64,000 nt of DNA. It comes from Prosthecobacter sp. (GTDB taxonomy: Bacteria; Verrucomicrobiota; Verrucomicrobiia; Verrucomicrobiales; Verrucomicrobiaceae). Shown one piece after another: positions 1,825 through 64,000 of the stretch. The position numbers and the translations under genes are program-made. The notes below the pieces were generated by a model that saw only the letters and a program-made list of their open reading frames with translations, did not search any database and was not told the origin of the DNA. Each line of letters opens with the position of its first letter. Position 1 is the first letter of the stretch. The stretch lies in NCBI GenBank assembly GCA_017853885.1, contig JAFMIR010000015.1, forward strand, positions 1-64,000, written 5' to 3'.

Positions 1825-3222
1825 ATGAACTCGCAAAACAATCCAAACTTCACCGCCTACGCCCTCGGCGAGCTCGATCTCGCTCAGGCACGCGAAGTCC
1901 ATGCCACCCTGCGTGAGCAAGCTTCTGCGGTGCACGAGCTGGAACAAATCGAGGCTGTTACCGATGCTCTGCGTCACGGTGCCCCCATTCCGAACGCCCG
2001 CCTTACTCCAGTGCAGCGCCACGCTGTGCTGCATCCCTCACATCTGCCACGTTTTCTGCAGCCCATGATGCCGCGCTACGCGGCAGGTAAGAAACCTTCC
2101 GTTGGCTGGAAGATCGTTGGCCGTGTTTTGAAAGCCGCCGCCGTTATCGCGCTCACCGGTGCCGCATTCCTCCTCGGCTGGCAAATGCACCAGCCATCGC
2201 AAACGACACTCGCTACGATCATCACGCCGGCAACACCGGAGCCGCTACAACTTCAAACCACGTCCGTTGAGGTCGTCGAAGCTCCAAAAGCTCCCTCAAC
2301 GAAACCAGAGTTCGTTGCCGCCAAAGCACCTGAAACCAGTCCGAAGATCGAACAGACTCCAGTGGTTGTTCCTGAGGTGCCGAAACCCGCCTCACTGGTT
2401 CTCACCAAAATGGTCGACGTGCCAAAGGCTGACACACTATCGTCAAAGAATGCGCTTTCGCTCGGTTTCACCATGCCGCGCAGCTTGCCCGCCTTTGCAA
2501 GCACCTTGAAAGAATCCGGTAGCCGCTACTCCTTAAATCCCGCTTTGATTCGTCCTGCGCGGGCAAAAAGCACCGGTGAGGCCTTTGCCTCGCCCGCCAA
2601 GAGCCAAGCTGAAAACAATCATGTGAAGGCCTCTGAGCTCTTTATCCACTCATGGCAGGCGGAGATCGCTACCTGCCCTTGGAATGCTTCACATCGACTC
2701 CTGAGGCTCGTTCTGTTGCTTCCGGCGAATCAAGCCGCGGTCACCAGCTCCAGTGAGACATCCTTCCCCATGCAAGTCGCATTCGACCCGCTCGCGGTAA
2801 AACAATTCCGTTTCCTTGGTGAGCGTCACATCGCTGCGCCGCAACTGGATCAGGCTGGCACGCATGTGGTCTGGTATGAGTTTGAGCCCAACGGCAAATC
2901 TGAACTCAAGACACCGGCCACCCGTCAGATTGCCATCGTTACCGTTCCGAATACACGTTTCACGCAAAAAGCCGTAGGTCCCTTTGATGACTCGAAGCTC
3001 CAAGTTCTCGACCGTGGCTTTACGCTCGACAATGCTCGTGATGACTTTCTTTTCGAATCTGCTGTCGTTGCTTTCGGTATGCTGATGCGTGGCACGCCTC
3101 AGATTGGTAGCCTCGATCACGAACTTGTGCTCAGTCTTGCTACGCGTGCCAAGACCGAGTCTCCGGAACGCACCCGCTTCATTAAGCTCGTGCAGGATGT
3201 GCAAAGAGCCGCCGGCCTTTGA
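1825..3222 (+). CDS. Putative membrane anti-sigma-like protein with YfbK-type (DUF3520-like) flanks but no vWA domain
   Basis: N-terminal anti-sigma-like region, one TM (VIALTGAAFLLGWQM), 'ATCPWNASHRLLRLVLL' then 'VAFDPLAVKQFRFLGE' and a C-terminal YfbK-like tail. Confidence 0.65.
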   Translation: MNSQNNPNFTAYALGELDLAQAREVHATLREQASAVHELEQIEAVTDALRHGAPIPNARLTPVQRHAVLHPSHLPRFLQPMMPRYAAGKKPSVGWKIVGRVLKAAAVIALTGAAFLLGWQMHQPSQTTLATIITPATPEPLQLQTTSVEVVEAPKAPSTKPEFVAAKAPETSPKIEQTPVVVPEVPKPASLVLTKMVDVPKADTLSSKNALSLGFTMPRSLPAFASTLKESGSRYSLNPALIRPARAKSTGEAFASPAKSQAENNHVKASELFIHSWQAEIATCPWNASHRLLRLVLLLPANQAAVTSSSETSFPMQVAFDPLAVKQFRFLGERHIAAPQLDQAGTHVVWYEFEPNGKSELKTPATRQIAIVTVPNTRFTQKAVGPFDDSKLQVLDRGFTLDNARDDFLFESAVVAFGMLMRGTPQIGSLDHELVLSLATRAKTESPERTRFIKLVQDVQRAAGL

Positions 3223-3343
3223 TATATACTCCTTGGATGGCGGCACGTGACACAGGCCCGACGGATCAGGCAAAATGGCCATTGGCTTTTTTCGCGAAAA
3301 ATCCCGAAAGTCCGGCCCTAGTTCTGCACTTCTAGCAGGCAGC

Positions 3344-4339
3344 ATGTCCGAATCAGCTCTTCTCTCCGAACGCCAGGTCGTCGAAATCCTCGCTAGCGCA
3401 CGCCAGCGTCTCTTTGCCGAGGTTGGTAAGGTCATTGTCGGACAGCAGCATGTCATGGATGAGATGCTCATCGCCCTGTTGGCTGGCGGCCACTGCCTCA
3501 TCACTGGTGCCCCAGGCCTAGCGAAGACCCTTCTCATCAAGACCCTGGCTGATGTTTGCCATCTCAGCTTTCAGCGTATCCAGTTCACGCCAGATTTGAT
3601 GCCCTCAGACATCACCGGCACTGAAATCCTCGAAGACAGTGCGGAAGGTCGTAAGCTCGTCTTCAGCCGTGGTCCAGTATTCGCCAACATGATCCTCGCC
3701 GATGAAATCAACCGCACACCGCCGAAGACTCAGGCTGCGCTGCTGGAGGCAATGCAAGAGCATCAGGTCACTGTGAATGGTAAGACCTTGTTTTTGCCAG
3801 AGCCGTTCTTCGTGCTCGCCACGCAGAACCCCATCGAGCAGGAGGGAACCTATCCTCTGCCCGAGGCCCAGCTCGACCGTTTTATGCTCAACATCGTTAT
3901 CGACTACCTCAGTGAAGACGATGAAGTTTCGGTCGTTACCCGAACCACCAGCGGCAAAGCCGAGCTAGTGGGACGCCTTTTCACGGGTGAGCAACTCCTC
4001 GCCTTTCAGCAAGTCATTCGCAAAGTTCCAATCGCTGAAGACGTCGCCCGATACGCCGTGCGCCTCTCCGCTGCCTCACGCCCGGGTCGTGCAGGCGTCC
4101 CCGACTTCGTTAATCAATGGATCAGTTGGGGTGCTGGCACTCGCGCTAGCCAAAACCTTGTTCTTGGGGCCAAGACCCGCGCTCTCCTACACAACCGCAC
4201 GCATGTTATCTTGGATGATATCCGAGCCATGGCCCTGCCAGTCCTTCGCCACCGTATTCTCGTCAACTACAAGGCTGAAGCAGAAGGTGTGACAGTTGAG
4301 AAGGTGATAGGGAAGCTGTTGGAAGCAGTGGGGAGGTGA
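3344..4339 (+). CDS. MoxR family AAA ATPase
   Basis: GGHCLITGAPGLAKTLLIKTLAD, FTPDLMPSDITGTEI, GPVFANMILADEINRTPPKTQAALLEAMQEHQVT. Confidence 0.95.
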   Translation: MSESALLSERQVVEILASARQRLFAEVGKVIVGQQHVMDEMLIALLAGGHCLITGAPGLAKTLLIKTLADVCHLSFQRIQFTPDLMPSDITGTEILEDSAEGRKLVFSRGPVFANMILADEINRTPPKTQAALLEAMQEHQVTVNGKTLFLPEPFFVLATQNPIEQEGTYPLPEAQLDRFMLNIVIDYLSEDDEVSVVTRTTSGKAELVGRLFTGEQLLAFQQVIRKVPIAEDVARYAVRLSAASRPGRAGVPDFVNQWISWGAGTRASQNLVLGAKTRALLHNRTHVILDDIRAMALPVLRHRILVNYKAEAEGVTVEKVIGKLLEAVGR

Positions 4340-53626: not shown

Positions 53627-54724
53627 TCAATACTTGAGGGCAAAGACGAGTCCGTTTGTGATGAGCATGGCTCCGTAGGCGATGGGAAATACAATCTTGC
53701 AACGGTGATCCAGAGCGTCCGCGGCAGCGATCCGGTTTTCGCGATTCAATTCGCCCACGATGAGGTTCACGACAATACTGGCGCACATGACGATGAAGCT
53801 GATGCTCACAAAAACGTTGACGGGTGTGAGGTAAGAAATGTGAGGCATGATATCGCCTAGCACCATCTGGTAAGCTACTGCCGTGAGCAGTCCGACGAAT
53901 GAAACACTCATTCGGTCACCCACCGAGGAGCGATCCATCCAGAAAACCGACCAGGATAGAACAACAACCAGAAAAAGGGGCAAGACGACCAAGCGCACGA
54001 TAAAAGCGGATTGACGCTTGACGTCCAACTCGAAAACAAATGCTGAAGTGGATTCGTTTTTGCGCGGTGAGGTTGGCAGAATTTTGTCTGACATGACCCG
54101 CATCCCGAGAACAGTCCACTGGGGAATGCGAACTTCTTCATCGCTGAGTGACGGCACATCGAGAGGGACCATCTTGAGCTCCGATTCGGAGTAGCCGGGA
54201 ATGCCAAAATAAATCCGCAGTTTTTGTGTATCGAAGGGATACTGGCGAAGTTTGAGTTCGGATTTGGCGGTAGCGTTAACCGGTGTGACCAAGATAGCAG
54301 TTCCATCGGGAAGGACGCGAAGGAGAGGTTCACCTTTTTCAAAGGCACCGACGGAATTGAGCAGCGAAACCTCAGGATACCACGATGTCGCGAGTTCGTT
54401 GAATTGGAAGTTTCCTTGGTAAAACTTTTCTGACACACCCTCGGTGGCGGGGTCAAAGGCTTGCCTTTCGTCTTTCCACTGGACGGTGAGAATACCGCTA
54501 AACTCAAATGTTTCGGTGGTTTCCTCGATCTGCACGACGTCGAACAATTGAAAGCCGATGCGGATCTCAATAGGTCTTTGACTCGTCGGCGGTGAGAGCA
54601 GAACAGTTTGGTTCGGAGTCTGTTTCGCGTCGGAGCGGACGATAGCCAAGACGAGTGCGGTGATGATGATCAGAAAAGGGCGCACGGTTCGTGTTTTTTC
54701 GACTGTGTGACTGATGGATGGCAT
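53627..54724 (-). CDS. Pentameric ligand-gated ion channel homologue (prokaryotic Cys-loop superfamily)
   Basis: Signal peptide; EIRIGFQLFDVVQIEETTETFEFSGILTVQWKDERQ; LRQYPFDTQKLRIYFG; TMs LVVLPLFLVVVLSWSVFWM / RMSVSFVGLLTAVAYQMVLGDIMPHISYLTPVNVFVSISFIVMCASIVVNLIV / C-terminal TM4. Confidence 0.87.
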   Translation of the reverse strand: MPSISHTVEKTRTVRPFLIIITALVLAIVRSDAKQTPNQTVLLSPPTSQRPIEIRIGFQLFDVVQIEETTETFEFSGILTVQWKDERQAFDPATEGVSEKFYQGNFQFNELATSWYPEVSLLNSVGAFEKGEPLLRVLPDGTAILVTPVNATAKSELKLRQYPFDTQKLRIYFGIPGYSESELKMVPLDVPSLSDEEVRIPQWTVLGMRVMSDKILPTSPRKNESTSAFVFELDVKRQSAFIVRLVVLPLFLVVVLSWSVFWMDRSSVGDRMSVSFVGLLTAVAYQMVLGDIMPHISYLTPVNVFVSISFIVMCASIVVNLIVGELNRENRIAAADALDHRCKIVFPIAYGAMLITNGLVFALKY

Positions 54725-55105
54725 GGATTGGTCAGAGGGCAGTGGCCCGCTTTATGGACAGCCATGAACGTGTCATTTTAATCCCATCCGACGGAAATTT
54801 GTCAATCAATCAAGCCGGGCTCCAGTGCCGCATCCCAAGACGCTTGCCATTTGCCTCCATGCGCCGGGAGTTCTTCGCCCTTCATCTTCCCAATCCGGAG
54901 CGATGGGAGGTCAGCCAAACGATGATCGAGGCGGAGATCAAGAAGGCTCGGAAGGCGAAGGCGGAGCACTCGAGGGAGAGGCGGAAGGAGAAGAGGGTGA
55001 TTGGGTTTCAGCCGAGTTGATCGGAGGAGACAGGCTTCGATTGGACTCAGCGTTCCTGGGTTGGCAGCCTGCATGTTCCGTGTATTGCTGGCTCGCCACT
55101 TCTTG

Positions 55106-55672
55106 ATGAGCATTCCTATCCAAGCCCTGCGTGACGGGGACGGCCCTGCTTGGTCGTCGGCCTATCCGTGGCTGTGGGAGTCTGGCATGGCCATAGCTCG
55201 GTTGCGGCTGGCCGGGGAGCGTTTTGAGCTGGACCGGGAGGACCTAGTGAGCACCGCGCTGCAACAGTTGATCCGTGGTCTGGTGGAAAAAAAGGAAGGC
55301 AGCTTCAATCAAATCGTCACCTGGGACGATTGTCTCGGCATGATGCGCCACATTGTTCGTTCCCGTGTTTTTGATTTCCTGCGTTCCCGCCAGCGTTCGC
55401 GGGAGGATGCTATGGAAGAGCTGCCGGAGCCTGCGCCAGATTTTAAGGTGGAGGAACGCTTCCGCTTGGATGAACTGCTGCCCGAGGTGGACCGTCTCCA
55501 GCCTGATCCGCCCGTGCCGCAGGTGTTTCGGGATCGCTTCATTGAAGGCTGGAGCACGGATGAGATCGCCGCTCGCCGGGGCATCAACCGCAACACCTTG
55601 CTTACCTATTTTGCGAAGGGCCTGCGCACCCTGCGCGAGCGTCTCACGCGTCTGGAAGGAGGCTTAGCATGA
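55106..55672 (+). CDS. RNA polymerase sigma factor-like (ECF) protein
   Basis: LDREDLVSTALQQLIRGL; MMRHIVRSRVFDFLRSRQRSRED; FRDRFIEGWSTDEIAARRGINRNTLLTYFAKGLRTLRERL; start reassigned to MSIPIQALRD. Confidence 0.85.
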   Translation: MSIPIQALRDGDGPAWSSAYPWLWESGMAIARLRLAGERFELDREDLVSTALQQLIRGLVEKKEGSFNQIVTWDDCLGMMRHIVRSRVFDFLRSRQRSREDAMEELPEPAPDFKVEERFRLDELLPEVDRLQPDPPVPQVFRDRFIEGWSTDEIAARRGINRNTLLTYFAKGLRTLRERLTRLEGGLA

Positions 55673-56253
55673 AGGACGAACACGACATTTTGCGCGAACA
55701 TGCCGATCTGCTCCGCGCCTTGGAGGAGCGCCCGCTTTCAGGCACGCTTCAGGTGCCGGAGCGCGTGCTCTTTGATTTGGAGGAGACACGGCAAAAGGCA
55801 CTTCAGGCCTGCAAAAGACCGCCAAAGGCCTCATTTATCCATCGCCATTCGGGCTTCCTGCGTCTCGCCGCCGTGCTTGCGCTACTTGCCGCCTTCACCT
55901 GGTTGGTCCTGCCTCATGCGCCCGCCACAGCGCGAGTGGTTATCACCTCGCCGGGAGATGAAACTACAGAGACAACACCTCACATTGCCTGGAACAGCAA
56001 GGACAAGCCAGGACAGAAATACGACGTGTGGATTTTGCCGGGAGGTGCAGACCATCTGACCGCTCCGGCTTTGTTTGTTGCGAAAAGCGTCACCTCGCCG
56101 CTGCGTTTTGAAGACATGCAGCACGTTCCTGGAGTCGGTTCAGTTGCCTTGCAGCCTGGGACGGATTATCAAGTGCTGGTCTGCTTGGCCGATGCCGGCC
56201 GCATGGCCGGCGTTCCGGTTCCATTCCGTGTCAAAGCTTTATTGCCACCATGA
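55669..56253 (+). CDS. Single-TM protein, putative anti-sigma factor/transmembrane regulator
   Basis: ATGA overlap with sigma gene; N-terminal charged ~65 aa, one TM (LRLAAVLALLAAFTWLVL), extracytoplasmic domain. Confidence 0.65.
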   Translation: MKDEHDILREHADLLRALEERPLSGTLQVPERVLFDLEETRQKALQACKRPPKASFIHRHSGFLRLAAVLALLAAFTWLVLPHAPATARVVITSPGDETTETTPHIAWNSKDKPGQKYDVWILPGGADHLTAPALFVAKSVTSPLRFEDMQHVPGVGSVALQPGTDYQVLVCLADAGRMAGVPVPFRVKALLPP

Positions 56254-57821
56254 TCCCGCGACTACTTTATCTTTGTTGCCTTGTCGGATTCCCTCTGCTG
56301 CTTTCTGCCGCGGAGCGTGCCGCTTTGGTCATCGGGGTGAATCGCTATAGCGCGTTCCCGGCGGACAAACAGCTAAGCAGCCCGGTCAATGATGCGCAGG
56401 ATGTGGCGCAAAGACTCGCTGCCATGGGTTTTGTCGTGCGGGCTCCTGTGCTGGATGGTACACGTCAAGCCATCATGGATGCGAAGCGTCATTTTATAGA
56501 TGAGGCTCGTGGAGCACAGGTCGCTGTTTTCTATTTTTCGGGACATGGTTTTCAGGTGGGTGATGAAAACTATCTTATTCCTTCGGACATGCCCGCGATC
56601 AGTAGCTTCACCGTGCTCAGAGAGAATGCTGTCCAGCTTCGTGACAGTGTGATGGCCGGGCTGGAAGAGGCTGGTGCAGGCACCAAGGTTGTCATTCTCG
56701 ACTGTTGCCGAGACAATCCCTTTGCCGGCCAGATTGCTGCTGCGCTGGGCACTAAGTCCCTGCGCACCAAAGGTGGGGGTGGGGAGATCAGCGGTTATGG
56801 CCCAGGGTTTTTCCTTGCTTTTGCCTCTAGCCCCGGTGCCACTGCACTGGATGGAAACGGGGCACGCAACAGCCCCTTTACTGCTGCGTTGATCCGCCAC
56901 TTGGACGAGGAGCCCGGTGCCAACCTGCGGGATCTTTTCGACGGGGTGAAGTCCACTATCAGCGAAGTTCATGGGCAGGAGCAGGTTCCCTGGGTCAATG
57001 ACAGCCTCAACAGGCAACATGTGAAAGTGCTCGCCAAGCTCATCCCCTCCAACAACACACCAGCACCGCCTGCCATGAGCGAGACGGAAATCGAAAAACG
57101 GGCGCGAGAACTGGCTGCCAAGATGGCGGCTGAGGCATCACAGCCTGCGGCAGACACAGGCGGGCTCTTTACCAACAGCTTGGGCATGAAGTTCGTCTCT
57201 GTACCCGGCACGCAGGTGAGGATGTGCATTCATGAAACACGAAATGCGGACTATGCGGCGTATGCGGCAGCGCAGAGTGGAGTGGATGACGCGTGGCGAG
57301 ATCACGCGGCAGGCAGCAAGGACCAGCATCCCGTGGTGAATGTGAGCCACGAAGATGCTGAGGCGTTCTGCCGCTGGTTGAGCGCGAAGGAAGGAAAGAA
57401 CTACCGGCTGCCCACAGATGCGGAATGGAGTGCGGCGGTGGGGCTCGCGTCTGAAACAGGCCGTACACCGCGGGAGAAGGATGAGAGCGGTCAAGACGCT
57501 TTCCCATGGGGCCGACATTGGCCACCTCGGCCATCGGACGGGAACTACCAAATCAGCGGGGTGAACGATGGCCATGCCGGCACAGCGCCGGTGATGAGTT
57601 TTCCGCCAAACGGGCTAGGCCTCCACGATCTCGGAGGCAATGGCATGGAGTGGTGTCAAGATTGGACGGATGATAGCCGGGTGTTTCGTGTGCAGCGCGG
57701 TGGTTCGTGGCGTGATGATTCCCGTGTCTCTGTGCGTGCCTCTACCCGTAGTTATGGCCGCCCTGTGGAAAGAATGGATTTCCAAAGCTTCCGCATTGTC
57801 TTTGTTAGCGCAGGAAATTAG
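56250..57821 (+). CDS. Caspase (peptidase C14)-like + FGE/SUMF1-like fusion, secreted (copy 1)
   Basis: AALVIGVNRYSAF; VAVFYFSGHGFQVGDENYLIP; VVILDCCRDNPFAG; C-term NSLGMKFVSVPG...RLPTDAEWSAAVG...LGLHDLGGNGMEWCQDW...VQRGGSW. Confidence 0.93.
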   Translation: MIPRLLYLCCLVGFPLLLSAAERAALVIGVNRYSAFPADKQLSSPVNDAQDVAQRLAAMGFVVRAPVLDGTRQAIMDAKRHFIDEARGAQVAVFYFSGHGFQVGDENYLIPSDMPAISSFTVLRENAVQLRDSVMAGLEEAGAGTKVVILDCCRDNPFAGQIAAALGTKSLRTKGGGGEISGYGPGFFLAFASSPGATALDGNGARNSPFTAALIRHLDEEPGANLRDLFDGVKSTISEVHGQEQVPWVNDSLNRQHVKVLAKLIPSNNTPAPPAMSETEIEKRARELAAKMAAEASQPAADTGGLFTNSLGMKFVSVPGTQVRMCIHETRNADYAAYAAAQSGVDDAWRDHAAGSKDQHPVVNVSHEDAEAFCRWLSAKEGKNYRLPTDAEWSAAVGLASETGRTPREKDESGQDAFPWGRHWPPRPSDGNYQISGVNDGHAGTAPVMSFPPNGLGLHDLGGNGMEWCQDWTDDSRVFRVQRGGSWRDDSRVSVRASTRSYGRPVERMDFQSFRIVFVSAGN

Positions 57822-57859: not shown

Positions 57860-59548
57860 ATGAAACCCATCCCCCTTCTTCTCACCCTCTTGCTGCTGGC
57901 CTTGACGGCCTTGAATGCCGCGCCGCGGGTGGCGCTGGTGATTGGCAACAACGCCTACCGGGACCTTTCGCCCAGCATGCAGCTCACCAGCCCGGTCAAT
58001 GACGCGCAGGACGTGGCGGCGGCGCTGCAGCGGCTGGGCTACACGGTGGTGGGCGGAGCGGCGATCACGGATGCCACGCGGGAGCAGCTCACGGCGGCCA
58101 CGGAGCAGTTTGCCACGGCGGCACGTGGGGCGGAGGCGGCGGTGTTTTACTTCTCGGGGCATGGCATCCAGGTGGGAGAGGATAACTACCTGCTGCCCAG
58201 CGACACGCCAAAGCTGACCGGGCTATCGATGCTGAAGAACCGTGCCGTGCTGCTGCGTGACAGCGTGATGGTGGCGCTGGAGGAGGCTGGAGCGGCCAGC
58301 AAGGTGATCATCCTGGACTGTTGCCGTGACAATCCGTTCTCCGCGCAGCTTGAAACGGCGCTCTCGCAGGTGGGCAAGAGCGTGAAGACGAAGTCGGTGG
58401 GAGAGATCAGCGGGTATGGTCCCGGCTTCTACCTGGCCTTTGCCACCAGTCCTGGCAGCACGGCGGCGGATGGGAATGGTGCGCGCAACAGCCCCTTCAC
58501 GGCGGCGATGCTCAAGGCGCTGCCGGGCGGCGCGGGCAAGGACATTGATTTCTTCTTCCGGGATGTGAAGGCGCTGTTGCCGGATGACCAGGTGAGCTGG
58601 ACGAACCACAGCATCAAAGGCAGCTTCGCGCTGGTGCCTGGAGCCGCCGCTCCCTCGGTGCCGATGACGCCTGTGCCTGTCGCGCCGCCTGCGGCAGTGG
58701 TCGATCCGCTGGCGGGAGTGAGCAAGGAGAAGCCGCATCAGAACAGCTTGGGCATGGCCTTTGTGCCAGCGGGCACACCGGGAGTGCTGTTCAGCGTGTG
58801 GGAGACGCGGGTGAAGGACTTTGAGGCCTTTGTGGAGGACAGCGGTCACGATGCGATCAGCGAGAATGCGTATGGTCTACCCGCCTTCACGCTGGAGTCA
58901 GGCGCAGAGTGGAAGCAGGCGGGTGGTTCGTGGCGTGATCCGCGTTTTCCGGCGAAGCAGAGCGGAGAGCACCCGGTGGTGTGCGTGAGTTATTTGGACG
59001 CGGAGGCGTTTTGCGCATGGTTGACGAAGAAGGAGCGTGCGAGCGGGAAGATCCCTGCCACGGCCAGTTACCGGTTGCCTACGGATGCGGAGTGGAGTCG
59101 TGCCTGCGGCGGGAGCGAGTATCCGTGGGGGGAGACGTATCCGCCAAAGAGCGCGGATGGGAATTACGCGGGCGCGGAGGCAATGGTGGGAGCCCTGTCC
59201 GGAAGGAGCGGCGAACTGTCGAAGGCGGGTTTCCGCGATGGAGCAGCGCGGACATCGGCGGTTGGGATGTTCAAGGAGAACCGCTTCGGTCTTTATGACA
59301 TGGGCGGGAACGTGTTTGAGTGGTGCAGTACCTGGTATGAAGCCAGCATGAACGAGGCGGACGTGCTCAAGGAATTTCCAGGGCTCAAAAACGACGAGGG
59401 CGGTCAAACCTACCGGGTGCTGCGCGGTGCTTCGTGGGACGGCGTTACGGAGTCGGATCTGCGTTCATCGTTTCGGGGCTTCGGGGACCCGCGCTATCGC
59501 GATGTCGGCAGCGGGTTTCGTTGTGTGCTGGTGGTGGCTGGCGGCTAG
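57860..59548 (+). CDS. Caspase-like + FGE/SUMF1-like fusion, secreted (copy 2)
   Basis: VALVIGNNAYRDL; AVFYFSGHGIQVGEDNYLLPSD; VIILDCCRDNPFSAQ; NSLGMAFVPAG...YRLPTDAEWSRACGG...GLYDMGGNVFEWCSTWY...LRGASW. Confidence 0.93.
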   Translation: MKPIPLLLTLLLLALTALNAAPRVALVIGNNAYRDLSPSMQLTSPVNDAQDVAAALQRLGYTVVGGAAITDATREQLTAATEQFATAARGAEAAVFYFSGHGIQVGEDNYLLPSDTPKLTGLSMLKNRAVLLRDSVMVALEEAGAASKVIILDCCRDNPFSAQLETALSQVGKSVKTKSVGEISGYGPGFYLAFATSPGSTAADGNGARNSPFTAAMLKALPGGAGKDIDFFFRDVKALLPDDQVSWTNHSIKGSFALVPGAAAPSVPMTPVPVAPPAAVVDPLAGVSKEKPHQNSLGMAFVPAGTPGVLFSVWETRVKDFEAFVEDSGHDAISENAYGLPAFTLESGAEWKQAGGSWRDPRFPAKQSGEHPVVCVSYLDAEAFCAWLTKKERASGKIPATASYRLPTDAEWSRACGGSEYPWGETYPPKSADGNYAGAEAMVGALSGRSGELSKAGFRDGAARTSAVGMFKENRFGLYDMGGNVFEWCSTWYEASMNEADVLKEFPGLKNDEGGQTYRVLRGASWDGVTESDLRSSFRGFGDPRYRDVGSGFRCVLVVAGG

Positions 59549-59853
59549 GCTCTTACCTTCTGCTCTTTTTACCTTCTGGATTCTGGATCAGGCCGCGTAG
59601 CGGCAGGAAAAAATTTTAATGAACTCGATTTTTGAATTTTGCAGGGAACGCCATCTGGAAAGCCAGCGGGCCACCTGTGGAAGGAGCTGTCCGGCAGGCC
59701 AGTGCCGCGCATGACGTGGCTCCAAGGAGGCTGTGGTCCTTCACGTGAAAAAAATTCACGATCCCACAATCAAACTCCCGTCTCTGGCGATGGCACCTGT
59801 GAATGCGGCAATCACGCCGCATGCAAACCAAACCATCCACACCTACCGAAGCC

Positions 59854-60093
59854 ATGAAAACCATCGCCATCCTTGCCATCGCCCTGATCACCGCCTGTGC
59901 CGCTCCGTCCGCCAAGGCCGATTACTACCGCCCCTACATCACCCACACCTGCGTGGTGCACAGCCGCACGGAATGCCGCTGGGCCACCGACTACTGCGGC
60001 CGCCGCTTCAGCTACGAGGTGAGGGTGGTCACCTACCGCAGCTATTACAGCAACGGCCAGAGCACCACGTTCACCAAAACCTACCGTGCCTGA
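59854..60093 (+). CDS. Small secreted protein with Tyr/Cys-rich mature region
   Basis: MKTIAILAIALITACAAPSAKADYYRPYITHTCVVHSRTECRWATDYCGRRF... Confidence 0.55.
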   Translation: MKTIAILAIALITACAAPSAKADYYRPYITHTCVVHSRTECRWATDYCGRRFSYEVRVVTYRSYYSNGQSTTFTKTYRA

Positions 60094-60202: not shown

Positions 60203-60748
60203 ATGAAGTCATCTATCCTCCTGCTCTTTCTCATCGCTGGCAGCCTGCTAGCGGCTGATCCTGCCGTGGTGCCTGCCGCTGATCTGGCCAAGAAATGGAA
60301 GCGCACCAAATCGCTGACCGCGCCGGTGGAAAAGCTGCGCAAGGGGCTGAGCGTGGAGGTGGACGGACGTGCCACCGCTGCGCTGGAGGTGAAGGTGGAC
60401 GCGGACACGGCGTGCAGCTTTCAAAACATCCAGTTCAAGCTGGACAGTGCCGTGCTGGATGGGGCTGCCACCTTTGCGCAGCTGACAGAGATTGCCACGG
60501 CGATGAAGGCGGCCGGGACGGAGCATTTTGTCATCGAGGGCCACACCTGTGATCGCGGGGAGGACGGGCATAACCTGAGCCTCTCCCAGCAGCGGGCGCT
60601 GGCGGTGCGGGAGGCACTGGCCGGTCTCGGCGTGCCCGCGCAGAGGCTGGTGGTGCTGGGCTTCGGCGAGAGCGAACCCGCCGTGGCCAACATCGACGAG
60701 GCAGCCCGGCAGGTGAACCGCCGGGTGCAGATCTTCAGGAAGCTGTGA
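60203..60748 (+). CDS. OmpA-family periplasmic/envelope protein
   Basis: Signal peptide; IQFKLDSAVLDGAATFAQLTEIATAM...FVIEGHTCDRGEDGHNLSLSQQRALAVREALAGLGVPAQRLVVLGFGESEP...NRRVQI. Confidence 0.88.
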   Translation: MKSSILLLFLIAGSLLAADPAVVPAADLAKKWKRTKSLTAPVEKLRKGLSVEVDGRATAALEVKVDADTACSFQNIQFKLDSAVLDGAATFAQLTEIATAMKAAGTEHFVIEGHTCDRGEDGHNLSLSQQRALAVREALAGLGVPAQRLVVLGFGESEPAVANIDEAARQVNRRVQIFRKL

Positions 60749-60774
60749 AACGCCATTCGGCCCTTAAACGACAG

Positions 60775-61212
60775 ATGCGAACATTCCTGTGCGCCACTTG
60801 GCTTGCTTTCACTGTCTGCCTAATAGCGTCTTGTGTCGGTGGGCATCGGTATCTATTGCCGGGTCATGCACCCAGTAAGATGGATGGGACACTGCCTCCT
60901 TTGGTGATGCAGCAAGGGGAAACCCGGCCGATCATCTGCGAGTGGGGCAAACCGATGAAGTGGGGCTTCAGCCCAGGACTGGCCTGTGCGGACGAAACCG
61001 TGGCACGCGTGGAATACGAAGACGGCCGGTCAACGTCCGGCACGGTCTCTCTCCGCGCCTTGAAGCCAGGCATCACGAGTGCTTGGTATGTGAATGGCTT
61101 TGCGCCCTCATCGAGTAATCATAAGCTAGAAGCGCATGACATTCGCACCACTTTTGAGGTTCGAGTCCTGCCACCACGACGTTGCGCGGAAATGCTTCTT
61201 CCGCATCCCTGA
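60775..61212 (+). CDS. Putative lipoprotein
   Basis: Signal with lipobox LIASC (MRTFLCATWLAFTVCLIASCVGG); alternative GTG start at 60745 overlapping upstream stop. Confidence 0.6.
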   Translation: MRTFLCATWLAFTVCLIASCVGGHRYLLPGHAPSKMDGTLPPLVMQQGETRPIICEWGKPMKWGFSPGLACADETVARVEYEDGRSTSGTVSLRALKPGITSAWYVNGFAPSSSNHKLEAHDIRTTFEVRVLPPRRCAEMLLPHP

Positions 61213-61213
61213 T

Positions 61214-62800
61214 ATGAAACATCTTTTCCTAGCTCTGTTCATGGCGGCTGGTGGCATGGCTGCCTTTGGGCAGGATACTCCGCCGCGCACGGCGCTGGTG
61301 ATGGGGGTAGGGGATTATGGTGGGGCGAAGTTCAAAGGCGGCACCATTCCAAACCTGCCCGGCATCACCACGGCCGACCTTCCCGGCATGGAGACCAAGC
61401 TGAAGTCCCTCGGATTCAGCGTGACGGTGGTGACCAATCCCACGCTAAGCGAGGCCAAGACGGCCGTGGATGCCTTCTCCGCCAGGATTAAGGCAAACCC
61501 GGGCGTGTCACTCTTCTACTTCAGCGGCCACGGTGGAGAGTATGAGGGCAAGAACTATCTGATCCCACGCGGAGCAAACATCGGCAGCAAGGCGGATCTC
61601 AGCGACGAGGCGCTGAGCGCGCAGCGGGTGCTCAATGGCATGGAGGAGAGTGGAGCGCAGGTGAACCTGGTGTTTCTGGACTGCTGCCGGGAGGATTTGG
61701 GGAAAGGCGTGGGCGGAGCTGAAATGGCACCGCTCAAGGCGAAGGGCAGTTTCATCGGTTTTGCCACGCGCAGCGGCGACTTTGCCGATCCGGGTGAGGA
61801 AGGCAGTCCCTACACGCGCTTTCTGCTCAAGCATCTGGACAAGCCGGGAGTGAGCGTGGCGGACATGTATTCGATGGTGATCGGCGAGGTAAAGGACTTC
61901 AGCAAGCGGGTGCTGGGAGAGGAGCGGCGTCCCGGGTTCTACTCGGAACTGGACGCGCCGTTTTACTTGGTGCCAACTGTGGGCGCTAAGTCTGTGCCTA
62001 TGGCCCAACCTTCGCCGACCTCGAGATCGCCGGCATCAGGAACGATCGTGAACAGCATCGGCATGAAGTTTGTTCCACTGCCAAGCACTGCTGTCCTGAT
62101 TTGCAGCACCGAAACGCGGGTGCGTGATTATAAACAGTTTATGAACGACACCCAGCACGACATGAGCGCCTCCGCGCAAACTCTGGCGCAAGATGGCTGG
62201 CAACGGCGCGCAGGACAGGACTGGCTGCGGCCAGGTTTCAACCAAACGGATGACCATCCGGTCACTTGTGTGAGCTGGGAGGACGCACAGGCATTCTGTA
62301 AGTGGCTCAGTCGCAAAGAGGGACGCACCTACCGCCTGCCCACTGACCATGAATGGAGCTTGGCGGTGGGTATTGGCGACCGTGAAGCCTCTTCGGAAGC
62401 ACCCTCGGCTAAAGACGAGAAAATCATCGCCTACCCTTGGAATGCTGATTTCCCTCCGAGCATCAAGGATGGCAACTATCGCGGCACCGAGAGCCGTCTC
62501 GGCCACGAGCCGAGCAATTGGACGACACTTGTTGACTTCAATGATGGTTTCCCCCGCACTTCGCCCGTTGGGAGCTTCAAGCCGGGTGTCCACGGTCTCT
62601 ACGACCTCGGTGGCAACGTCTGGGAGTGGTGCGCGGATTGGCATGATCCCGCAGAACCCATCTGCCGCGTCTTGCGAGGCGGCTCCTGGGTCAGTAGTCA
62701 AGCTACCAGCTTACTCTCTTCCATGCGCTTGATTGGAGGTGCGCCAGACACACGCCGTAGTGATATTGGCTTCCGTTGCGCGCTGGAGCCAGCCCCGTGA
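61214..62800 (+). CDS. Caspase-like + FGE/SUMF1-like fusion, secreted (copy 3)
   Basis: TALVMGVGDYGG; VSLFYFSGHGGEYEGKNYLIPRG; LVFLDCCREDLGKG; NSIGMKFVPLPS...YRLPTDHEWSLAVG...GLYDLGGNVWEWCADWH...LRGGSW. Confidence 0.92.
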   Translation: MKHLFLALFMAAGGMAAFGQDTPPRTALVMGVGDYGGAKFKGGTIPNLPGITTADLPGMETKLKSLGFSVTVVTNPTLSEAKTAVDAFSARIKANPGVSLFYFSGHGGEYEGKNYLIPRGANIGSKADLSDEALSAQRVLNGMEESGAQVNLVFLDCCREDLGKGVGGAEMAPLKAKGSFIGFATRSGDFADPGEEGSPYTRFLLKHLDKPGVSVADMYSMVIGEVKDFSKRVLGEERRPGFYSELDAPFYLVPTVGAKSVPMAQPSPTSRSPASGTIVNSIGMKFVPLPSTAVLICSTETRVRDYKQFMNDTQHDMSASAQTLAQDGWQRRAGQDWLRPGFNQTDDHPVTCVSWEDAQAFCKWLSRKEGRTYRLPTDHEWSLAVGIGDREASSEAPSAKDEKIIAYPWNADFPPSIKDGNYRGTESRLGHEPSNWTTLVDFNDGFPRTSPVGSFKPGVHGLYDLGGNVWEWCADWHDPAEPICRVLRGGSWVSSQATSLLSSMRLIGGAPDTRRSDIGFRCALEPAP

Positions 62801-62819: not shown

Positions 62820-64000
62820 ATGAACCTACAATCCGCTCCGTCCATCGCCAAGCTGGCTGCCTGCCTTGGGTTTTTCTTTTGGAATGCAAGCGCCCTCTCA
62901 CAGGATCGCACTTACGCCGGTAAAGTTGGCCGACTGGAAGCGATTTTCACCCTTCGCTGGCAGGATGGAGATCTTGTAACGGGTTCCTACTTCTGCCCGT
63001 CGGGGAAAAGCATCAGCTACGAACTGCGGGGCGAAAACAAAATCAATGGCCGCTTAAACTTAGATGAGTTCACCCATGGCCAACTCACTGCCAAAATCGT
63101 CCTGCAAAAAATCGACAAGATGGGGAAGATCAGTTGGCAGGGCACCATGCACAATGTCGACGGCCGCAAGCTGCCGGTCTCGTTTACCCGCACAAGCTCG
63201 GTTCCGGCTCCAAAAACGTCTGCGGTCTCCACCAGCAGTCGTGAATACCTCGCCATCTGGGATCGCACACGGGTCACATGCATGCTGGATTGGAGTCGAG
63301 ATGGCACGGTGCGCGGAACGATGCGTGATCCTTCCACTGGCGAAGCCATGGAAATCCAAGGTAGCAATCCACAGGAAGGCCTCCTCCGTCTGAATTGGCA
63401 ACGCGGAGGTCAGTTCGAAAGTGCGGAACTCAATAAATCTCTGACTTCCAAAGGCATCGTTTGGCAAGGCTGGCTCTCCAGTGGCAAGCCATTCATCCTC
63501 ACGCGACTTCGCAGTGGTGGTGCTCCAGCAAATGCATCTGAAACCTATGAGCAAGTTCGCATCACCGTGGCGCCACAAACCATGTGGCCTACCCCACTAT
63601 TCCAAGGCAAAGAGATTAGCAGTAGCGCTTTCAGGGCAGAACTAGGCAAGAGAGATGCGGAACAAACTGAAAGGCATCCGCTCAAAGCCGTCATTGAGTC
63701 CGTGTCAAAATCCGACGGCACGCTGCAGCTCTCGCTGCGCACCTTGGAGTTTGATAATGATTACGAAAAAAAGCACTACATTCCCTCTTTGGAGCAGTTC
63801 ACATTCAGTGTGCCAACCTTGGCTGAACCTCAATCTTTCCAGCCCGGCGACGAGTGTTTCGCAAGCGTGGACAAGACGGGCCAAATTTTGGGGCTTCGCC
63901 TTGGTTCTGCCAGCATCACTCACTGGCGCAAGCGAGCCAATGGCTTTATTGAGGTGCTAACAGGTCATGATCGCGGTTTGGACCGTGGCCCGGCGGTGCC
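62820..64000 (+). CDS. Hypothetical secreted protein, 3' end beyond window
   Basis: Read by hand: MNLQSAPSIAKLAACLGFFFWNASALSQDRTYAGKVGRLEAIFTLRWQDGDLVTGSYFCPSGK..., no stop to 64000; absent from supplied ORF track. Confidence 0.7.
   Translation, partial: MNLQSAPSIAKLAACLGFFFWNASALSQDRTYAGKVGRLEAIFTLRWQDGDLVTGSYFCPSGKSISYELRGENKINGRLNLDEFTHGQLTAKIVLQKIDKMGKISWQGTMHNVDGRKLPVSFTRTSSVPAPKTSAVSTSSREYLAIWDRTRVTCMLDWSRDGTVRGTMRDPSTGEAMEIQGSNPQEGLLRLNWQRGGQFESAELNKSLTSKGIVWQGWLSSGKPFILTRLRSGGAPANASETYEQVRITVAPQTMWPTPLFQGKEISSSAFRAELGKRDAEQTERHPLKAVIESVSKSDGTLQLSLRTLEFDNDYEKKHYIPSLEQFTFSVPTLAEPQSFQPGDECFASVDKTGQILGLRLGSASITHWRKRANGFIEVLTGHDRGLDRGPAV

Follow-up and report, generated by a model that had tools for sequence, protein, structure and literature searches.

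An ECF sigma factor, a probable membrane anti-sigma factor and secreted caspases of Prosthecobacter linked by a candidate promoter element

Here, we analyze a 64,000-nucleotide stretch of DNA (the window) from a Prosthecobacter sp. (assembly GCA_017853885.1, contig JAFMIR010000015.1, positions 1 to 64,000), in which the gene of an extracytoplasmic function (ECF) sigma factor, SIG, is followed by genes for a regulator with a single transmembrane (TM) helix, REG, and for a secreted caspase with an FGE-like domain, CAS1. From the comparison of related genomes we consider it likely that SIG, controlled by REG, switches on secreted caspases through a bipartite element, CAATC-N16-CGAT, and that the caspases are mainly the output of this circuit. 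The element is a putative promoter that co-occurs with SIG.

A sigma factor, a probable anti-sigma factor and caspases in one operon

A sequence-only reading of the window had proposed three open reading frames (ORFs) joined by two ATGA stop/start overlaps. On checking, the frames and both overlaps (SIG/REG at 55669-55672, REG/CAS1 at 56250-56253) were confirmed in place (Table 1). The assignment of SIG as a sigma factor was also correct and can be narrowed to the ECF type. SIG matches Pfam Sigma70_ECF (PF07638) with 24.4 bits, above the cut-off of 21.1, and stays slightly below the cut-off of TIGR02937 (40.2 against 42.9 bits), while the profile of its family matches solved ECF sigmas in the PDB (SigL, SigE and SigW; best 9e-13). 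As a homolog of known ECF sigmas that contains regions 2 and 4 only, SIG belongs to group 4.

REG itself gave no match in Pfam or NCBIfam, and a search by sequence for a solved homolog returned none. Its AlphaFold model (pLDDT 82) consists of two helices (residues 5-20 and 31-49), a TM helix and a beta-sandwich. The N-in topology of REG is implied by the basic KRPPKASFIHRHSGFLR that precedes the TM helix, and with its single TM helix and a gene adjacent to that of the sigma factor REG has the topology and gene position of class I membrane anti-sigma factors. The anti-sigma domains of this class (ASDI) comprise four helices (PMC7406223). The ectodomain with its motif YDVWILP is the most conserved portion of REG in the alignment, and a Foldseek search with it gave fibronectin-III (FN3) monobodies as best matches (4e-3) and the sensor domain of the anti-sigma factor RsgI4 on rank 10, all within an E range of 4e-3 to 1e-2. 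On the cytoplasmic side, the top-conserved element across families is a helix with the pattern VPxxVLxxLExxR. Those relatives of REG that have a longer N-terminus match anti-sigma models of NCBIfam, including NF052375, over the cytoplasmic and TM region; the best match reaches 1e-6 and lies under the curated cut-offs. Sequence and model together suggest that REG is probably an anti-sigma factor whose putative sigma-binding part is shortened. The earlier proposal of a membrane anti-sigma factor thus stands as probable, given the overlap with the SIG gene, the one TM helix with a basic cytoplasmic side and the matches of the relatives. In one related genome (G174), an in-frame TGA right after the TM helix splits the FN3 domain off the REG frame (L056 3222-3659 and 2685-3218, minus strand).

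That SIG, REG and CAS1 share an operon is borne out by the spacing of the genes in other genomes. The junction between REG and the caspase gene measures -4 to +3 nt in five genomes of two families (G000, which is the genome of the window, G075, G052, G177 and G206). The 4-nt overlap of the window is replaced by a caspase start 2-3 nt past the REG stop in G075, G052 and G177, which belong to the same genus, and in G206 from another family; because tight junctions recur in this way, the overlap is more than a chance event. Caspases near the sigma/REG genes were also found in G008, G137, G028, G047 and G162. Counted by lineage, a caspase cluster lies within 12 kb of this sigma factor in 6 of 15 sampled lineages, where 0.39 would be expected (P about 7e-7). 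The arrangement of sigma factor, TM protein and caspase is hence conserved in other genomes, as the sequence-only reading had suggested should be surveyed.

REG is rare, being present in 8 of the 68 family genomes and in 10 of the 289 genomes of the order sample, and its named bearers are Prosthecobacter-like Verrucomicrobiaceae. The 43 genomes of the genus without REG carry 0-5 caspases each. The sigma/REG pair also occurs without adjacent caspases, namely in G174, G025 and, as a sister subfamily, in G116, G090, G136, G128, G156, G011 and G185. In G174, whose assembly is 86% complete, no caspase was detected. The sister subfamily adjoins a conserved secreted protein of 680-690 aa instead of caspases (G116, G090, G136 and G128; L063, L064, L065 and L148).

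Table 1. Features of the window and of the adjoining part of the contig
Feature	Position	Strand	Basis or remark
Candidate sigma70-like promoter of the SIG operon	55061-55088	+	TTGGCA (55061-55066) - N16 - TATTGC (55083-55088)
SIG, ECF sigma gene	55106-55672	+	188 aa; PF07638, TIGR02937, PDB profile comparison
Internal CAATC-N16-CGAT inside SIG	55306-55330	+	candidate promoter for REG-CAS1
REG, single-TM regulator, probable anti-sigma factor	55669-56253	+	194 aa; ATGA overlap with SIG
REG TM helix, residues 62-80	55852-55908	+	hydropathy, AlphaFold model
REG extracytoplasmic FN3/Ig-like domain, residues 90-188 (predicted)	55936-56232	+	AlphaFold pLDDT at or above about 90
CAS1, signal peptide, caspase (C14) and FGE-like domain	56250-57821	+	Pfam
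CAS1 catalytic His99 in YFSGHG	56544-56546	+	invariant in caspase alignment
CAS1 catalytic Cys153, second C of LDCCRDN	56706-56708	+	invariant in caspase alignment
CAS2, secreted caspase-FGE paralog	57860-59548	+	Pfam
Promoter-like CAATC-N16-CGAT	59767-59791	+	de novo dyad search; upstream of small secreted protein/OmpA/CAS3 unit
Small secreted Cys-containing protein	59854-60093	+	ORF; recurrent in the putative regulon
OmpA-domain protein	60203-60748	+	PF00691 2e-16; recurs in related clusters
Lipoprotein-like protein, function unassigned	60745-61212	+	ORF; no Pfam match
CAS3, secreted caspase-FGE paralog	61214-62800	+	Pfam, blastn
Unknown secreted protein between CAS3 and CAS4	62820-64000, past window end to contig 64247	+	ORF; no Pfam match
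CAS4, fourth caspase-FGE	contig 64328-65961, beyond window	same strand	
DUF4384 protein	contig 66036-68390, beyond window	same strand	

The CAATC-N16-CGAT element and the likely course of regulation

A de novo dyad search found CAATC-N16-CGAT in 7 of 25 upstream regions from four genomes, compared with a maximum of 3-4 in shuffled sets, and the spacing is exactly 16 nt in 11 of 11 training sites. The sites precede the unit of the small secreted protein and the OmpA-domain protein, the DUF4384 gene (five genomes) and, in G008 and G025, caspases; in G025, ORFs resembling the small secreted Cys-containing protein sit behind the element as well. Core caspases of G008 and G052 that lie outside the clusters are not preceded by it. 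With a matrix trained without the sites of the Prosthecobacter genome studied here, the best position of the window is 59755 on the plus strand, with a score of 37.2 against shuffled maxima of 6.6-9.4, and this recovers the element listed at 59767-59791.

For searches across genomes, a profile of the 11 sites was used, trained on five of the genomes that contain the element. In 48 genomes of the genus, matches with E<0.05 are confined to the five with SIG-REG, with none in the 43 others; the presence in the five is partly given by construction, the absence from the 43 is not. Among 28 genomes outside the training set, matches at this level were found only in G025, G137 and G174, and these are all the remaining family genomes with REG. 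Outside training, the element therefore occurs in all 3 family genomes that possess REG and in none of the 14 that lack it (P 0.0015; 3e-5 against all 57 without), and overall it tracks the SIG-REG pair in 8 of 8 family genomes with the pair against 0 of 57 without. In G025 the element stands ahead of caspases whose contigs do not carry the sigma gene, and linkage fails to explain the co-occurrence because these caspases are unlinked to sigma. Since the element lies before caspase, OmpA and DUF4384 genes and co-occurs with SIG-REG, the caspases would be placed downstream of the sigma factor, and the simplest reading is that SIG recognizes CAATC-N16-CGAT and that the caspases are its output.

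The same element could in principle be the operator of another co-inherited regulator, with SIG serving a different regulon and merely traveling with the caspase cluster. This would agree with the absence of the element from the upstream region of the SIG operon itself, and recognition by SIG is a step that we infer. However, a second DNA-binding protein was not recognized in the clusters, ECF promoters typically have such a bipartite spacing, and the element follows SIG-REG across the family and even to the unlinked caspases of G025. We regard the operator explanation as quite improbable.

Upstream of the SIG gene, an autoregulatory copy of CAATC-N16-CGAT had to be rejected. A different motif, TTGGCA-N16-TGTAAT/TATTGC, is conserved there in three genomes (G000, G075 and G052), and exact matches to TTGGCA elsewhere in the compared loci are at background. 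Classical ECF promoters of the type GAAC..CGT/GTC were dismissed as well, with just two scattered matches. A copy of CAATC-N16-CGAT is found inside the sigma gene of six genomes (G000, G075, G052, G177, G008 and G137). The codon usage at this position is unusual: of 52 columns with an invariant amino acid, 9 use a single codon in all six genomes, and the four codons of the element (TTC AAT CAA ... GAT) are all among these 9 (P 4.7e-4). Yet these genes encode Gln less often by CAA (18) than by CAG (46), and AAT is not commoner than AAC. The pattern suggests that the internal element may drive REG and CAS1.

Several observations weigh against this picture. The compared assemblies are mostly metagenome-derived. 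The profile was trained on five of the genomes in which the element was found and its E-values are rough; the matches in G174 are marginal (E 0.025 and 0.031) and read CAATG, the sigma ORF of G025 looks frameshifted, and the divergent sigma-REG pairs of two further families (f3 and f4) do not share the element. The internal site scores 8.3 with the position weight matrix, which is inside the shuffled range of 6.6-9.4 and, by score alone, at the level of noise. Finally, the REG of the window has two predicted cytoplasmic helices and matches no anti-sigma model.

In the circuit that we favor, SIG would be held in the resting cell by the cytoplasmic helices of REG. An envelope signal would be sensed by the FN3-like ectodomain of REG and SIG would be freed. 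Free SIG would then bring RNA polymerase to the CAATC-N16-CGAT promoters of secreted effectors, which would include caspases with FGE-like, peptidoglycan-binding, amidase or PDZ tails as well as the OmpA-domain, small secreted Cys-containing and DUF4384 proteins. As a feedback, the internal copy in SIG would increase the expression of REG and CAS1, SIG itself would be expressed from a housekeeping-type promoter, and the caspases would act in the envelope, mainly as output.

The sequence-only reading had run the circuit the other way round, with a caspase that cleaves the anti-sigma factor and thereby releases the sigma factor. We found this direction not to be supported. The REG alignment contains no conserved cleavable site or linker; the link between TM helix and FN3 domain is about 9 residues long and has no conserved basic site. 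The caspases coupled to REG are not orthologous, since those of G000 and G177 form one clade and those of G075 and G052 another, that of G206 stands apart, and their tails differ (FGE, PG_binding_1, Amidase_3). A dedicated anti-sigma protease is disfavored because the coupled caspase varies in this way between genomes, unlike the strongly conserved REG ectodomain. In addition, there are the SIG-REG pairs without adjacent caspases, including that of G174, and the element puts the caspases downstream. It thus appears unlikely that a secreted caspase is a site-1 protease that cuts the REG ectodomain and frees SIG, which would make the caspases an input or a positive feedback as in DegS/RseA or Csx29/Csx30. 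What speaks for such a protease is that caspase and REG ectodomain would share a compartment, that in five genomes the two genes show translational coupling or come close to it, that the caspase fold is MALT1-like, that a cluster caspase of G075 has a PDZ domain as DegS does, and that caspase-like cleavage of a sigma inhibitor has a precedent in type III-E CRISPR (PMC10028731). Feedback cleavage of REG by a caspase is possible. A closed periplasmic circuit, in which SIG induces MALT1-like secreted caspases and one of these cuts the FN3 ectodomain of REG and locks sigma on, seems to us improbable; if true, it would be an all-or-none program of envelope remodeling or self-lysis, with the amidase- and peptidoglycan-binding caspases as executioners.

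The caspases, their tails and the remaining cluster

CAS1 has a signal-peptide-like N-terminus followed by Peptidase_C14 (PF00656, 4e-30) and FGE-sulfatase (PF03781, 2e-31) domains. The secreted caspase with an intact His/Cys dyad that had been read from the sequence was confirmed: H99 and C153 are invariant, and since the motif reads DACR in relatives, the second C of LDCCRDN can be taken as the catalytic Cys. With the caspase fold and its His-Cys dyad, CAS1 falls into the caspase/paracaspase family C14, and its caspase half is closest to the MALT1 paracaspase by sequence and by fold (Foldseek 3e-16); the structure model is good in this half only.

The Pfam match places the tail in the FGE/sulfatase-modifying fold. 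In active FGE enzymes, two catalytic cysteines follow the RGGS segment. In CAS1 a Cys after RGGSW is absent, so an active FGE enzyme was rejected and the domain is probably a binding domain. A diversity-generating retroelement target, considered since FGE has a CLec fold, was rejected too, as the reverse transcriptase PF00078 was not matched in the 94%-complete genome.

CAS3 and CAS4 are 94% identical in DNA over the caspase half, whereas their FGE tails are divergent (blastn), which points to swapped tails along with a recent duplication or gene-conversion event. In relatives, the cluster caspases bear other tails: PG_binding_1, Amidase_3, Amidase_3 together with PG_binding_1, and PDZ, the latter in G075. 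These tails point to the cell wall as the direction of the caspases. Fusions of a caspase to an N-acetylmuramoyl-L-alanine amidase (Amidase_3) were found in G052 (L054 12572-14692, minus strand) and G137 (L058 10621-12672, minus strand), and such a fusion could possibly be a protease-gated cell-wall hydrolase. The more distant cluster of G047, with caspase, OmpA and sigma genes, also encodes a serpin (L062 11224-12756, plus strand; 3e-69) and a D-Ala-D-Ala carboxypeptidase (2741-4078, minus strand); with the serpin, a protease inhibitor lies beside proteases that it may target.

The operon extends beyond the three genes that the sequence-only reading had named: a same-strand run continues from SIG-REG-CAS1 to the DUF4384 gene past the window end, and all four caspases detected in the genome (4.27 Mb, 94% complete) sit in this cluster. 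DUF4384 proteins of 784-789 aa with a weakly cytochrome-c-like N-terminus recur in the putative regulon (L052 3037-5391, plus strand; L053 8161-10527, plus strand; L054 3328-5697, minus strand), always behind CAATC-N16-CGAT. Divergent to the SIG operon lies a gene for a homolog of pentameric ligand-gated ion channels (53627-54724, minus strand; Pfam Neur_chan_LBD 1e-17, Neur_chan_memb 8e-11).

The patchy distribution of the pair in the family, the tandem duplication with tail swapping and the Amidase_3 tails might also suggest an accessory defense or lysis island, in which gene traffic has brought sigma factor and caspases together without regulatory coupling. PADLOC returned a generic caspase match and ZorB-like OmpA matches for the cluster but no defense system, and we do not count the cluster as one. 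Gene traffic alone would lead one to expect neither the REG-caspase junctions kept across families nor the shared promoter-like element, and this explanation is very improbable indeed.

Relation to known systems

Operons that join sigma-70 and metacaspase genes have been known since 2012 from Myxococcus xanthus and others, with FGE fusions and OmpA neighbors listed (Asplund-Samuelsson et al. 2012, PMC3501461). The operon described here likewise combines sigma and caspase genes. The available text of that paper describes no anti-sigma factor, promoter or regulon and does not mention Verrucomicrobia; here, a TM regulator lies between sigma and caspase, the caspases form a tandem array and there is a candidate sigma-dependent promoter.

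In type III-E CRISPR (PMC10028731) a caspase-like protease, a sigma inhibitor and an ECF sigma are also co-encoded (Csx29, Csx30 and CASP-sigma). There, however, the protease is activated by RNA and relieves inhibition by cutting a soluble inhibitor, whereas in our reading caspase and REG ectodomain would be extracytoplasmic and the caspases downstream. An identity with Craspase was discarded because the caspases carry N-terminal signal peptides and REG spans the membrane once, a judgment made without a search for cas genes. With control of the RseA/DegS type the system shares a membrane-spanning regulator encoded directly after sigma, with a cytoplasmic sigma-binding part that is predicted for REG. 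It differs in the FN3-like putative sensor, the shortened anti-sigma region and the caspases in place of a PDZ serine protease.

The predicted promoter arrangement resembles that of sigH-rshA in C. glutamicum, where the sigma gene has housekeeping promoters and a sigma-dependent promoter within it was experimentally shown to drive the anti-sigma gene (PMC3489674). RshA and its regulon are unrelated, however, and the internal promoter here is a prediction. ECF54 sigmas resemble SIG in having a caspase-like protease gene nearby (CHAT/subtilase neighbors), but are described as lacking an anti-sigma factor (PMC8999054). Literature searches for verrucomicrobial caspases associated with ECF sigmas, and for DUF4384 together with both, turned up no report. 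As far as the searched literature shows, new features are the candidate membrane anti-sigma factor with an FN3 ectodomain, the tandem array with swapped tails and the candidate regulon element that would make caspases the output of an ECF sigma factor.

What turns bacterial caspases on and what they serve is largely an open question. The comparative evidence presented here links a specific promoter element to a probable sigma/anti-sigma pair and to envelope-directed caspases, which in relatives include fusions to cell-wall amidases. With a shared switch and a DNA start signal proposed ahead of caspase clusters, the control of bacterial caspases becomes directly testable.

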